Assembly (NCBI RefSeq): GCF_003268675.1
Contig: NZ_CP029378.1
Location: 4,898,001-4,962,000 of the forward strand
Direction: 5' to 3'
Origin: Streptomyces bacillaris
GTDB lineage: Bacteria > Actinomycetota > Actinomycetes > Streptomycetales > Streptomycetaceae
DNA length: 64,000 nucleotides
Each line of letters starts with the position of its first letter. Position 1 is the stretch's first letter. Of this stretch, positions 7,027 to 37,945 are shown one piece after another. The notes beneath the pieces were generated by a model that saw nothing but the letters and a program-made list of their open reading frames with translations, was not told the origin of the DNA and made no database searches. Position numbers and translations under genes: made by a program.

Positions 7027-7060
7027 AGCGGGCGGCCCCTGGGCCCATGAGCCGCCCGCT
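7027..7060. terminator. bidirectional terminator between ppx and the toxin gene
   Basis: AGCGGGCGGC (7027-7036) pairs exactly with GCCGCCCGCT (7051-7060), whose last base is in the toxin stop codon. The two genes converge here. Confidence 0.7.
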
Positions 7061-7329
7061 CAGAGCGACCGGTAGACGTCCCGTCGGTTGCCGACCTTGA
7101 CGACGAGGATGATCAGCTCGCCGTCCTCCACCCGGTAGGCAACCCGGTAGCTGCCCACCCGGAGGCGGTAGAGCCCTGACGGACCGGTGAGCTTCTTGAT
7201 GTCGGCGTCCTCGCGGTACGGATCGTCGCCGAGCGCCGTCAGCGCGGCGAGGATACGCATGGCGGCGGGCCGGTCGATGGCCCGGAGCTGCCGCTGCGCA
7301 GCCGCGGTGAACCGGAACGCGTATTTCAC
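7060..7329 (-). CDS. RelE/ParE family toxin
   Basis: The 89-aa product matches the RelE fold: KYAFRFTAAAQRQLRAIDRPAAMRIL, then DPYREDADIKKLTG, and the C-terminal core YRLRVGSYRVAYRVEDGELIILVVKVGNRRDVY with the Arg/Tyr residues used for ribosome-dependent mRNA cleavage in RelE. The start is GTG 7329, overlapping the antitoxin stop as GTGA. The module lies on the minus strand between two copies of the ppx 3' end. RelE rather than ParE activity is likely from the terminal motif but not certain. Confidence 0.92.
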   Translation of the reverse strand: MKYAFRFTAAAQRQLRAIDRPAAMRILAALTALGDDPYREDADIKKLTGPSGLYRLRVGSYRVAYRVEDGELIILVVKVGNRRDVYRSL

Positions 7330-7598
7330 GCCGCGCCTTCGGTGCGCTCGGCGAACAGGTCCGCCAGCAGCTCCGCCATCGTCACGGTCGGGCCACCCTC
7401 GGCCAGGACCGCTTCCGCTTCCCGGGCGAGCAGTACGTCGGCCGCCTCCTCCAGCGCGTCGAAGTCCGCGATCGGCACCAGCGCGGCGACGGGCTCGCCG
7501 TTGCGGGTGATCACTGTGGGTGTCCCCTTCTCGGCGGAGTTGATGTGGTCCGCCAGGTGCGCGCGGGCTTCCCGTACAGTCACAGTGCTCTCGGCCAT
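7326..7598 (-). CDS. Phd/YefM family antitoxin
   Basis: The 90-aa product has the N-terminal Phd/YefM DNA-binding fold: MAESTVTVREARAHLADHIN, then GTPTVITRNGEPVAALVPIADFDALEE. The C-terminal half is acidic (MAELLADLFAERTE) and is expected to wrap the RelE toxin. ATG 7598 is preferred over a start 33 bases upstream because it matches the family N-terminus and lies 6 nt after a -10-like TACACT (complement of 7605-7610), suggesting a leaderless transcript. It should repress its own promoter through the palindrome at 7606-7627. Confidence 0.93.
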   Translation of the reverse strand: MAESTVTVREARAHLADHINSAEKGTPTVITRNGEPVAALVPIADFDALEEAADVLLAREAEAVLAEGGPTVTMAELLADLFAERTEGAA

Positions 7599-16222: not shown

Positions 16223-16308
16223 GCCCGGATGGTGGAACGTAGACACGGCGAGCTTAAACCTCGCTGCCCCTCGGGGGCGTGCCGGTTCGAGTCCGGCTCC
16301 GGGCACCA
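16223..16308 (+). tRNA. bldA: tRNA-Leu, anticodon TAA (reads UUA); bldA
   Basis: The acceptor stem GCCCGGA (16223-16229) pairs with TCCGGGC (16298-16304), followed by discriminator A and encoded CCA (16306-16308). The anticodon stem GCGAG/CTCGC (16248-16252, 16260-16264) encloses the loop CTTAAAC with anticodon TAA at 16255-16257. The long variable arm (CTGCCCCTCGGGGGCG region) and the T arm GCCGGTTCGAGTCCGGC mark it as a type II leucine tRNA. In Streptomyces the UUA-decoding tRNA is bldA, whose loss blocks aerial growth and most antibiotic production while vegetative growth is normal because TTA codons are rare. Confidence 0.96.
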
Positions 16309-26490: not shown

Positions 26491-26865
26491 TCAGATCTCC
26501 AGCTCGGCCTCGATCTTCTTGAGCTGGTGGCGGGCCATCGCGAGGTTGGCCCGGCTCGCGTCCAGCACCAGGTAGAGGAAGAGGCCGTTGCCGCCACGGG
26601 TCTTGAGCAGCCGGATCAGGTGGTACTGGGTGCCCAGCGTGATGAGGATGTCCTCGATCTCGTCCTTGATGCCCAGGTGCTCCATCGTGCGGAGCTTGGC
26701 CCGGATCACATCGGTGTTGCCCGCGGCGGCGACCTCCAGGTTGAAGTCCTTGCCGCCGCCGAGCGTGCCCAGGGCCATCCCGCTCGTGTAGTCGACGAGG
26801 GCGACACCCGTGGTGCCCTCGATCGAGCTCATCGCATCCTTCAGTGCCGCTTCGGTGTTCGCCAT
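26491..26865 (-). CDS. Roadblock/LC7-like protein, last gene of the cluster
   Basis: This 124-aa small alpha/beta protein resembles Roadblock/LC7 or MglB-type proteins, which as dimers bind small GTPases. The motif GVALVDYTSGMALGTLGGG is followed by a helix, then IEDILITLGTQYHLIRLLK, a strand NGLFLYLVLDASRANLAMARHQLKKIEAELEI. It is clearly paralogous to the gene at 28295-28708, sharing VDxTSGxALGT, EDxxxT, YHxxR and NLAMARxxL. ATG 26865 is set by homology. No GTPase gene lies beside it. It has no TTA codon. Confidence 0.82.
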   Translation of the reverse strand: MANTEAALKDAMSSIEGTTGVALVDYTSGMALGTLGGGKDFNLEVAAAGNTDVIRAKLRTMEHLGIKDEIEDILITLGTQYHLIRLLKTRGGNGLFLYLVLDASRANLAMARHQLKKIEAELEI

Positions 26866-26979
26866 GGAGGCTCGTTTCCTTTCCGTGGCCGGTCGCGGTG
26901 ACCGGGTCCGTTTCCGCGTGAGTGGCATGGGTGTGGTGGGTGGTGGGGGTGCGTGCGTGTGGAGGGAGGGGAGGAGCGG

Positions 26980-27447
26980 TTACGTGGGGCGCTGCGGGAG
27001 CGTGCGGTTCTGGGTGGTGCGCGCCGGGGCGGTACGGGGCATGGGGGGCGTGCGCTCGACGCGTTCCAGGGCGGAGTCGACGAGTTCGCCGATGCGGGCG
27101 CCCGCGCGGCGGCCCTCCAGATGGAGCCGGCCGACGTTGATGCGGTCCTCGGCCAGCAGGGTCAGGACGGCGGAGGAGCCGGCGGCGTAGGTGGCGATGT
27201 AGCCGCTCCCGCCGCGGACCAGGAGTTCCCGGAAGCCGCCGCGGCCGGTGGCCTCCGTCATCCGGATCGAGACGCCGAGCGCGGCGGCGGTGAGGGCGGC
27301 GACGCCCTCGGCCTCGATGCCCGGGGTGTCATGGGCCAGGACCAGGCCGTCGGTGGAGGCGGCCAGCGCTCCGGAGAGGAGGGGCACCCGGGCCCGTAAC
27401 CGCTGCAGCTCGTCGAGGACACTCCGCGTCTCGGCCTCGGGAACCAT
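26980..27447 (-). CDS. Roadblock/LC7 domain protein with a TTA codon
   Basis: The 155-aa product has a Roadblock/LC7 domain (VPLLSGALAASTDGLVLAHDT, then GVAALTAAALGVSIRM, ELLVRGGSGYIATYAAG, SSAVLTLLAEDRINVGRLHLEGRRAGARI), with the C-terminal 35 residues Pro/Thr/Arg-rich. Proteins of this type occur in Streptomyces conservons next to a GTPase and a histidine kinase. Leu17 is encoded by TTA (27397-27399 on the complement), so translation should need bldA. GGGAGGAG is 8 nt upstream of ATG 27447. Confidence 0.88.
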   Translation of the reverse strand: MVPEAETRSVLDELQRLRARVPLLSGALAASTDGLVLAHDTPGIEAEGVAALTAAALGVSIRMTEATGRGGFRELLVRGGSGYIATYAAGSSAVLTLLAEDRINVGRLHLEGRRAGARIGELVDSALERVERTPPMPRTAPARTTQNRTLPQRPT

Positions 27448-27485
27448 CAGCTGTCTCCTCCCGGCACGCTGTCTGAGCGCGCGTA

Positions 27486-28298
27486 TCACAGGGCCTCCAA
27501 TGCGTCTCGGAGCCGGCGCAGCAGGGCGATGTCGGGGTCGGCCGTCACCTCGGGGAGCGTGATCCGGCCGGCCGTCGTGGCGGTGGCGGGCAGCGGCTGC
27601 TCGCGGACCGCCTCCACCAGGCCGGCCGCGGCGAGCCGCCGCAGGTCGACCAGGATGTGGAACGCCGAACGGCCCAGGGCCTGGGCGATGTCGGAGGCCG
27701 TACGGACGCCGTCGGCCAGCTCCAGGACCGCGCGCTGGCGGTACGGTACGGGGCCGGCGCCCGGGTGGGCCGCCCTCCCCAGGACGGGGGCGCTGTCGCA
27801 GGCGGCGTCGGGCCAGATCCGGTCCAGCAGCTCCCGTCGGCGCAGGGTCTCGCGCTGGACGGCGGCCACCGGGACCGGCCGCACCGGCCCGATCCAGTGG
27901 GACACCCCGTAACGGAAGCGGGCGGGGGTGCCGGTCGGGGCGAGGGCGAAGAACGCGGCGTCGTACAGTGCGCCCAGGTGGCACAGCTCCAGCGCGCCGC
28001 CGGGCACATGGCCGCTGTCGACGAGATAGCGGCCGACCCGCTGTCCGGCCCCGGCCTGCGCCACCGCGTCCCACCACCCCTCGTGGCGCAGGGTGCCGCC
28101 GGTGGTGAGGAGCACGTCGATGCCGGGGGTGGCGGGGCTCTCGGCGTGGACCACCTGGCCGTCGGCGAGGTAGAGCGTGCCGCGGTCGCGCATCAGGGCG
28201 CCGGTGGCCCGTTCGGCGGCGAGGCGCTGGAGCATCGGGGAGAGGACCGGGAGCCGGTCCGTCTCGGGGGCGCCGGGGTCGGCGGCTATCGCGCTCAC
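27486..28298 (-). CDS. DUF4388-like protein with winged-helix-like C-terminus
   Basis: The N-terminal 60 residues (LSPMLQRLAAERATGALMRDRGTLYLADGQVVHAES) resemble DUF4388/PATAN-type sensor-output modules. A later segment (RAVLELADGVRTASDIAQALGRSAFHILVDLRRLAAAGLVE, about 175-218) reads like a winged helix. The 270-aa protein starts at GTG 28298, overlapping the preceding LC7 stop as GTGA, so it is coupled to it. This suggests a regulator acting with the LC7 proteins; DNA binding is an inference. Confidence 0.75.
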   Translation of the reverse strand: MSAIAADPGAPETDRLPVLSPMLQRLAAERATGALMRDRGTLYLADGQVVHAESPATPGIDVLLTTGGTLRHEGWWDAVAQAGAGQRVGRYLVDSGHVPGGALELCHLGALYDAAFFALAPTGTPARFRYGVSHWIGPVRPVPVAAVQRETLRRRELLDRIWPDAACDSAPVLGRAAHPGAGPVPYRQRAVLELADGVRTASDIAQALGRSAFHILVDLRRLAAAGLVEAVREQPLPATATTAGRITLPEVTADPDIALLRRLRDALEAL

Positions 28299-28708
28299 GC
28301 CAGCACCAGCCGCTCGGCCAGCTCGCCCAGGCGTAACCGGGCCATCGCGAGATTGCCCTCGGAGCGGCTCAGCCAGAGGTGGAGGAAGACGCTGCTGTCG
28401 AAAGCCGTCTCGACGAAGCGGAGCATGTGGTAACCGTCTTGGGTGGTGACGATGACGTCCTCGACGGCGGTGCCCGGCGCTTCCCCGGAGCGGTCGGCGG
28501 AGTCCCCTGCCACCAGGCGGGCGAAGGCGGGCTGTTCGGCGGTCATCCGGGCGACCTCTGCCGTCTCGGCCGCCGTCGCCTCGTGGTCGCCGTTGGGGGA
28601 TTCGCCGATGGTGCCGAGCGCGAGGCCGCTCGTCCAGTCGACCACCGAGGCGCCACGGGCGCCGGGCAGCCTCATGACTTCGAGCAGGCACTCGTCGATT
28701 CCGGGCAC
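28295..28708 (-). CDS. Roadblock/LC7-like protein, first gene, with a TTA codon
   Basis: This 137-aa paralogue of the gene at 26491-26865 shows GASVVDWTSGLALGTIGES, AVEDVIVTTQDGYHMLRFVE and VFLHLWLSRSEGNLAMARLRLGELAERL. Leu125 is encoded by TTA (28334-28336 on the complement), inside the last helix, so without bldA the protein would be truncated near its end. GTG 28708 is chosen because GGGAGGGG lies 9 nt upstream and the N-terminus PGIDECLLEVMR aligns with the paralogue; a longer frame reaches 28804. Confidence 0.8.
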   Translation of the reverse strand: MPGIDECLLEVMRLPGARGASVVDWTSGLALGTIGESPNGDHEATAAETAEVARMTAEQPAFARLVAGDSADRSGEAPGTAVEDVIVTTQDGYHMLRFVETAFDSSVFLHLWLSRSEGNLAMARLRLGELAERLVLA

Positions 28709-28862
28709 GCGGGTTCCCCTCCCGAAGCGGCGTACGGCTGTGACCCTGAGGCTACGCAACGTACTCACGGCAGGTGGAAGTTCTGGCATTTTCCTTTGGT
28801 ACATGCTCCGCAGGGTGTAAAGGAGCGGCCGAAATGCGTTGGCCGGGAAGCGGTGTGACGGA

Positions 28863-30381: not shown

Positions 30382-32040
30382 ATGTCAGGACCCCGCCCCG
30401 TACGAGCACCGCGCGGCAGCGCCCTCAGCGCCCTGGGATGGCAGCAGGAAGCCGCCCTGCGCATGCTCCAGAACAACCTGGACCCCGAGGTCGCCGAGCA
30501 CCCCGACAAGCTCGTCGTCTACGGCGGTACGGGCAAGGCGGCCCGCGACTGGCGCTCGTTCGACGCGATGGTCCGTACGTTGCAGACGCTCAAGCAGGAC
30601 GAGACGATGCTCGTCCAGTCCGGGCGTCCGGTCGGTGTCATGCAGACCCACGAGTGGGCCCCGCGCGTCCTCATCGCCAACTCCAATCTGGTGGGCGACT
30701 GGGCCAACTGGGAGGAGTTCCGTCGCCTGGAGCAGCTGGGCCTGACCATGTACGGCCAGATGACCGCCGGGTCCTGGATCTACATCGGCACCCAGGGCAT
30801 CCTCCAGGGCACCTACGAGACCTTTGCCGCCGTCGCCGCCAAGAAGTTCGGCGGCACGCTGGCCGGGACGATCACCCTGACCGCCGGGCTCGGCGGCATG
30901 GGCGGCGCCCAGCCGCTCGCCGTCACCATGAACGACGGCGTCGCCATCTGTATCGACTGCGATCCGCGCGCCATCGACCGCCGCATCGAACACCGCTACC
31001 TGGACGTGAAGGCCGACAGCCTGGAGCACGCCCTCCAGCTCGCCGTCGAGGCCCGCGACGCCCGCCGCCCCCTCTCCATCGGCCTCCTCGGCAACGCGGC
31101 GGAGCTGCTGCCCCGGATGCTCGTCGAGGGCGCGCCGATCGACATCGTCACCGACCAGACCAGCGCCCACGACCCGCTGGCCTACCTCCCGCTCGGCGTC
31201 GACTTCGACGACATGGCCACCCTCGCCGCCGAGAAGCCCGCCGACTTCACCCAGCGCGCCCGCGAGTCGATGGCCCGTCACGTCGAGGCCATGGTCGGCT
31301 TCATGGACGCCGGGGCCGAGGTCTTCGACTACGGCAACTCCATCCGCGGCGAGGCCCGACTCGCCGGGTACGACCGGGCCTTCGACTTCCCCGGCTTCGT
31401 CCCCGCCTACATCCGCCCCCTCTTCTGCGAGGGCAAGGGCCCCTTCCGCTGGGCCGCCCTCTCCGGCGAGGCGTCCGACATCCACAAGACGGACAAGGCG
31501 ATCCTGGACCTCTTCCCGGAGAACGAGTCCCTGCACCGCTGGATCACGATGGCCGGCGAACGCGTCCACTTCCAGGGCCTGCCCGCCCGCATCTGCTGGC
31601 TCGGCTACGGCGAGCGCGACAAGGCCGGCGAGCGCTTCAACGACATGGTCGCGAGCGGCGAGCTGGCCGCCCCGCTCGCCATCGGCCGCGACCACCTGGA
31701 CTGCGGCTCGGTCGCCTCCCCGTACCGCGAGACCGAGGCCATGCTCGACGGCTCCGACGCCATCGCGGACTGGCCGCTGCTCAACGCCATGGTCAACGTC
31801 GCCTCCGGCGCCTCCTGGGTCTCCCTCCACCACGGCGGCGGCGTCGGCATGGGCCGCTCCATCCACGCGGGCCAGGTCACCGTCGCGGACGGCACGAAGC
31901 TCGCGGGCGAGAAGATCCGCCGCGTCCTGACGAACGACCCCGGCATGGGCGTCATCCGCCATGTCGACGCGGGCTACGACATCGCGGAGTCGGTCGCCGC
32001 GGAGAAGGGCGTACGCGTCCCGATGACGGAGGACCACTGA
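30382..32040 (+). CDS. hutU: urocanate hydratase (urocanase)
   Basis: It converts urocanate to imidazolone propionate in histidine degradation, using tightly bound NAD+. The 552-aa product has the full family length. Visible blocks are the N-terminal [18 protein letters not shown], the substrate region [16 protein letters not shown], the NAD loop [15 protein letters not shown] and the C-terminal [40 protein letters not shown] lies 7 nt upstream of the ATG. It leads the operon hutU-M20-hutF-hutI; no hutH is in the window. Confidence 0.97.
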
Positions 32041-37576: not shown

Positions 37577-37945
37577 ATGGACCGCGGGACGGTCGGCAGT
37601 GCGAACCGGGGTCGGCTTCAGGTCGAGGCCCGGACCGAGGGGCGCAGCGAGGTCGTGACTCCGGTGGGTGAGCTGGATCACCACACCGCCGATCTGCTGC
37701 GGGAACCCCTGGAGAGCGCGGTCGAGCAAGGGCGATCACGTCTGGTGGTCGACTGCTCACGGCTGGACTTCTGTGACTCCACCGGGCTGAACGTGCTGCT
37801 CGGCGCCCGCCTCAAGGCGGAGGCGGCCGGGGGAGGCGTTCATCTGACCGGCATGCTGCCGGTCGTGGCGAGAGTCTTCGAGATCACCGGCGCCGAGGCG
37901 GTCTTCACCGTCCACGCCACCCTCGAAGACGCTTTGAACACCTAG
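37577..37945 (+). CDS. arsI: anti-anti-sigma factor, STAS domain
   Basis: The 122-aa product is a SpoIIAA/RsbV-like STAS protein: VTPVGELDHHTADLLREPLESAVEQG, then LVVDCSRLDFCDSTGLNVLLGARLKAE with the phosphorylatable Ser in CDSTGL, and VFEITGAEAVF. When dephosphorylated it should bind the anti-sigma kinase and free the sigma factor. ATG 37577 has an AGAGG about 9 nt upstream; GTG 37550 is an alternative. The symbol assumes orthology to the S. coelicolor sigI locus. Confidence 0.88.
   Translation: MDRGTVGSANRGRLQVEARTEGRSEVVTPVGELDHHTADLLREPLESAVEQGRSRLVVDCSRLDFCDSTGLNVLLGARLKAEAAGGGVHLTGMLPVVARVFEITGAEAVFTVHATLEDALNT

Follow-up and report, generated by a model that had tools for sequence, protein, structure and literature searches.

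Recurrent TTA codons in a roadblock operon of Streptomyces suggest translation tied to the tRNA BldA

Across the genus Streptomyces, TTA codons have arisen again and again in the first three genes of a four-gene operon that encodes roadblock proteins, and this suggests that evolution keeps the translation of the operon tied to the developmental tRNA BldA, which is the only tRNA that reads UUA. Among 185 complete syntenic clusters, 108 carry at least one TTA in robC, the DUF4388 gene or robB (the names robC, robB and robA are coined here). The operon was analysed in a stretch of 64,000 nucleotides from Streptomyces bacillaris (contig NZ_CP029378.1, positions 4,898,001 to 4,962,000), which is referred to below as the window.

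Results

A four-gene operon conserved in Streptomycetaceae

The features of the window that concern the operon are as follows.

16223-16308, plus strand: bldA, tRNA-Leu(TAA), called with ARAGORN
26491-26865, minus strand: robA, roadblock-like protein of 124 amino acids, assigned by homology to robC; last gene of the operon
26980-27447, minus strand: robB, Roadblock/LC7 protein of 155 amino acids (PF03259, E 2e-16), with TTA at codon 17
27397-27399, minus strand: TTA codon 17 of robB
27486-28298, minus strand: DUF4388/PATAN-like gene with a winged-helix-like region, 270 amino acids, without TTA in this genome
28295-28708, minus strand: robC, roadblock-fold protein of 137 amino acids, with TTA at codon 125; first gene of the operon
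28334-28336, minus strand: TTA codon 125 of robC, in the last helix
28709-28806, minus strand: conserved upstream block of the operon, seen in an alignment of 43 relatives and by visual comparison across the genus

Transcription on the minus strand runs in the order robC, DUF4388-like gene, robB, robA. As judged from profiles and predicted folds, the operon encodes three roadblock proteins along with a DUF4388/winged-helix protein; robB is assigned to the roadblock family by profile, robC by fold, and robA through homology to robC only (33% identity), with no Pfam match of its own. The match of robC to PF03259 is weak (E 0.004), and its AlphaFold2 model (pLDDT 84) has MglB and roadblock proteins as top PDB matches. 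Residues 64-82 of robC (28463-28519, minus strand) form a hypervariable, disordered loop of low confidence. The DUF4388 gene matches PF14332 with an E value of 1.4e-4 and 22.3 bits, the curated cut-off being 25, and comparison of the structure of its product with the PDB gave no convincing match. Its GTG start overlaps the robC stop codon (GTGA), and 187 of 188 orthologues allow an overlap of this kind, the stop reading ATGA or GTGA. Synteny of the cluster extends over Streptomyces and to other genera of the Streptomycetaceae, and matches to robA were found in 74 of 81 genomes of the family.

The conserved block upstream of robC is a putative promoter region. At 28785-28806 (minus strand) it contains GCATGTACCAAAGGAAAATGCC, an imperfect inverted repeat that is conserved genus-wide, with a TTCC..GGAA core in most species, and whose sole exact match in this genome is the one upstream of robC; a similar palindromic site with two mismatches, at 6.92 Mb, precedes a glutamate-cysteine-ligase-like gene. 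Between the inverted repeat and the robC start is CGTTGCGTAGCCT (28749-28761, minus strand), also conserved genus-wide, which could be a BldN-like or HrdB-like -10 region. Assignment to either promoter type was rejected, as an element of the CGTTGCGTA type is conserved but does not discriminate the sigma factor. The ribosome-binding site GGGAGGGGA precedes the robC GTG at 28708, and AdpA-type sites upstream of robC were fewer than in shuffled sequences. Several species have a TTA at '-11' of robC; as it precedes the GTG and belongs to the untranslated leader, it was left uncounted.

TTA codons in the window

The initial annotation had placed the only in-frame TTA codons of the window at codon 17 of the gene at 26980-27447 and codon 125 of the gene at 28295-28708, with bldA at 16223-16308. 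Both codons were located there, the ARAGORN call of bldA agrees, and a recount over 58 called genes (17,030 codons) found these two and no other in-frame TTA. The gene calls and start choices are our own, made from codon usage trained on the window with TTA left unscored. Of the 81 TTA triplets counted over both strands, 61 lie between genes, 10 are in the wrong frame, 8 are antisense and 2 are in frame, and a third in-frame TTA is obtained only with unlikely upstream start choices. A short STAS-like gene (37745-37945, plus strand) has in-frame TTA 83 and 105 codons upstream of its called start; a longer start would take in one TTA, but looks unlikely. Two small overlapping genes at 7060-7514 (minus strand) look, by sequence appearance alone, like a RelBE-type toxin-antitoxin pair.

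Two of the points made in that annotation carry less weight than it gave them. The absence of TTA from some 55 other genes is ordinary: TTA occurs in 6 of 297 genes of the same chromosome (2.0%) and in 8 of 332 genes from 20 other Streptomyces genomes (2.4%), both baselines being 400 kb samples with simple gene calls, and these rates predict 1.2-1.4 TTA genes among 58. The presence of bldA 10.7 kb away, the single full-length copy in the whole genome, carries no weight as to mechanism, since tRNAs act in trans, and proximity was rejected as a mechanism. We estimate the post-hoc chance that both TTA genes fall in one four-gene cluster at about 1/10. The window by itself is thus a weak case, and it is the orthologues that lift the clustering far beyond chance.

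TTA codons in orthologous operons

The relatives sampled for the 185 clusters include S. griseus, S. anulatus, S. microflavus and S. californicus; an even draw over the genus gave 122 clusters. TTA was found in robC in 55 of the 185 clusters, in robB in 47, and in 39 DUF4388 orthologues (189 orthologues; 185 complete clusters). In the even sample any TTA was present in the first three genes in 73 of 122, with a share of 23-29% per gene, and in the griseus-type clade in 45 of 46. About 40% of species have the operon without any TTA, so dependence on BldA would not be universal. In other genera of the family, 8 of the 20 clusters retrieved have an operon TTA, and in two of these it is once more codon 17 of robB.

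The genes around these three behave differently. No TTA was found in 190 orthologues of robA or in 710 genes of 14 further neighbour families; 142 copies of the adjacent rpiR-type regulator and 31 of the permease likewise had none. When 80 loci were surveyed for up to 10 kb on each side, 64 of 231 copies of the three operon genes had TTA vs 0 of 787 for robA and the 14 neighbour families. It can be seen from these counts that coincidence, in which two rare codons simply landed in one cluster of this genome, is very improbable: one or two TTA genes are expected in the window and their clustering there is only mildly unusual, but the orthologue survey contradicts a chance origin.

We also looked for compensation between genes, where TTA would be lost from one and kept in another, and none was found. 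Outside the clade any TTA was observed in 45.3% of clusters vs 44.9% expected by independence, and within it the independence test between genes gave p = 0.37. We conclude that the operon genes acquire TTA independently of one another.

Positions and gains of TTA

The two TTA codons of the window differ in their conservation. At robB codon 17, TTA is found in 41 of the 46 genomes of the griseus-type clade, with CTG in the other 5; it stands at 45 of 185 genus-wide, S. griseus NCTC 13033 being one of its carriers, and recurs independently elsewhere, including in two genomes of another genus. At robC codon 125, TTA is common to the closest relatives only and has recurred separately; the codon of other species is mostly ATC, ATA or ATG, and ATA is commoner than TTA. 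Conservation of both codons, the check proposed with the initial annotation, therefore holds for robB across the griseus group and for robC among near relatives alone. At robC codon 8, CTA and TTA are equally common.

Across species TTA is found at many different places in robC and the DUF4388 gene and turns over quickly, many gains being confined to single species. Parsimony on the operon tree gave about 74 gains at the level of sites (robC 38, DUF4388 29, robB 7), numbers that are approximate as the alignment is uncertain in the variable robC loop, compared with 14, 15 and 17 site-level gains of CTA in the same genes. With each gene counted once, 54 gains of TTA were obtained (robC 25, DUF4388 22, robB 7); costing gains above losses lowers the gene-level count and leaves room for an ancient origin. 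Across orthologues, TTA accounts for 25 of 117 Leu codons (21%) in the disordered loop of robC, where the protein is least constrained, and a Pro codon, CCG or CCC, nearly always comes next.

Explanations for the excess of TTA

The readiest competitor to selection is that expression of the operon is weak, or confined to a late stage with BldA in good supply, and that TTA therefore goes unpurged and accumulates by drift. Fast turnover, the many single-species gains and the species without TTA all fit such tolerance, as does codon usage: the first three genes have a GC3 of about 0.90-0.93, and AGA is 3.5-fold and ATA 1.6-fold above genes matched for GC3, which indicates somewhat relaxed usage. 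However, drift should raise CTA, one step from CTG, more than TTA, which is two steps away, and per codon TTA is 13-fold above the GC3-matched genes when CTA is at only 1.3 (GTA 0.95, TTG 1.0); of genes with matching GC3, just 2-4% have TTA. The ratio of TTA to CTA is 152:58 in the operon genes vs 7:27 in the GC3-matched comparison (Fisher p 1e-8 on occurrences and 3e-5 on gains, the latter being the fairer figure because related species are not independent). If the first and third codon bases were independent, the counts of CTA, TTG and CTG would predict 2.6 TTA, and 152 were observed. The corresponding odds ratio, TTA.CTG/(TTG.CTA), is 57.9 in the operon genes, compared with 7.2 for the Arg AGA analogue in the same genes and about 8 for Leu in the genome sample. 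Persistence of TTA17 through a clade of 46 species also speaks against tolerance, and we regard it as unlikely, though the most serious of the rivals. These sequence statistics show an excess and a recurrence that simple drift in a weakly expressed gene would not predict; since the excess, the odds ratio and the robC loop all go beyond it, selection is favoured.

It is also conceivable that TTA is a by-product of a constraint on DNA or RNA, such as a need for little mRNA structure where genes join, or a binding motif that includes TTAC. Many of the codons do lie near gene starts or ends (robC 8 and 125; DUF4388 3-13 and 260-263; robB 17), and the base after TTA is C in 91-98% of cases. But C also tends to come after CTA and ATA, many gains are distant from junctions (robC 66-80; DUF4388 70 and 98), and synonymous sites around robB codon 17 vary (CGG/CGC, CTC/CTG, GTC/GTG/GTT), with no conserved DNA motif seen there when one was looked for. 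A by-product of this sort is improbable.

Discussion

Selection for BldA-dependent translation

The reading that we prefer, and consider probable, is that there has been repeated selection for TTA, making the translation of robC, the DUF4388 gene and robB dependent on BldA. Selection would repeatedly place TTA in one or more of these genes, and translation of those that bear it would need BldA and be delayed or limited until the tRNA is abundant. A stall in robC should also lower the output of DUF4388 through the stop/start overlap, while TTA in robB would gate robB directly. TTA-codon polarity on downstream genes has been suggested for the SCO0381-0401 cluster (PMC2000904). If the proteins act together, in one complex or along one pathway, a TTA in whichever subunit would gate the output, and this would be why the codon wanders between genes. 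A stronger form, in which selection acts on the BldA dependence of the whole complex and TTA moves freely between subunit genes with gating kept, is more doubtful, and we offer it tentatively. Dependence, coupling, timing and joint function are all proposed here from comparative sequence data. Points against dependence are the species without TTA, the lack of compensation between genes, the raised AGA and ATA, the frequency of CTA at robC codon 8 and of ATA at robC codon 125, and the C that nearly always comes after TTA, a context in which UUA is reportedly more easily misread without BldA. The initial annotation had proposed bldA-dependent translation of the whole set; the recurrent excess supports this for robC, the DUF4388 gene and robB, and the proposal fails for robA (0 of 190), which would be exempt from gating.

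In the stronger, tentative form, the operon would represent an uncharacterised roadblock signalling system, found throughout the family and provided with a translational switch of its own. The recurrent gains also mark this unstudied operon of the Streptomycetaceae as a likely part of the BldA-dependent programme.

Comparison with known systems

The gene hutU (30463-32040, plus strand) lies close to the operon, and its orthologues are without TTA. In S. coelicolor one of two HutU protein spots is absent in a bldA mutant, and HutU there is SCO3073 (PMC2000904), so the orthologous operon should lie close by; a literature search on SCO3074-3078 found no paper on it.

Two published lists were compared, the 29 genes or clusters with frequent TTA in Table 2 of PMC4255298 and the 11 conserved TTA positions given in PMC10327506. 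The operon is not recognisable in either, though mention of it in other literature is possible. Counted as a cluster (108/185), it would belong with the frequent TTA carriers of Table 2, and surveys that require one gene or one conserved position overlook it; a 50% cut-off applied gene by gene would leave it out, as each gene reaches only 23-29% in the even sample. Like the listed clusters SCO2567/2568 and amfC/amfR it has TTA in one or another gene in many species, and like other entries it consists of Streptomycetaceae-wide genes for regulatory-type proteins; unlike them, its TTA wanders over three adjacent genes.

The presence of a roadblock gene recalls the conservons (cvnABCD), also actinobacterial operons, and TTA is frequent in one of their genes, cvnC13 (PMC4255298). 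A conservon is defined by a cvnA kinase, a cvnC DUF742 protein and a cvnD GTPase beside the roadblock gene (PMC8510531), and these were absent among nine genes scanned with Pfam; we rejected this assignment, as the operon encodes a DUF4388 protein and three of the roadblock type in their place. The roadblock fold is also that of MglB, the roadblock GAP of MglA (the top PDB matches of robC, and a weak NCBIfam match of robB), but identity is only about 20%, and no MglA-like GTPase was found in the operon or the adjacent genes scanned.

The textbook bldA target, the Streptomyces regulator adpA, is gated by BldA. Its TTA is present in all streptomycetes analysed (PMC4255298), and the operon resembles it in having a conserved TTA, although here the gene and position vary and robB codon 17 alone is conserved, within a clade. 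Opinions have differed on whether bldA serves as a genuine regulator or reflects a side effect of a rare codon (PMC3814723), and the recurrent gains in the operon vs none in neighbouring genes provide a natural replicated test. We conclude that the operon is a further TTA-bearing cluster of Streptomyces, one in which recurrent gain can be traced with unusual clarity.
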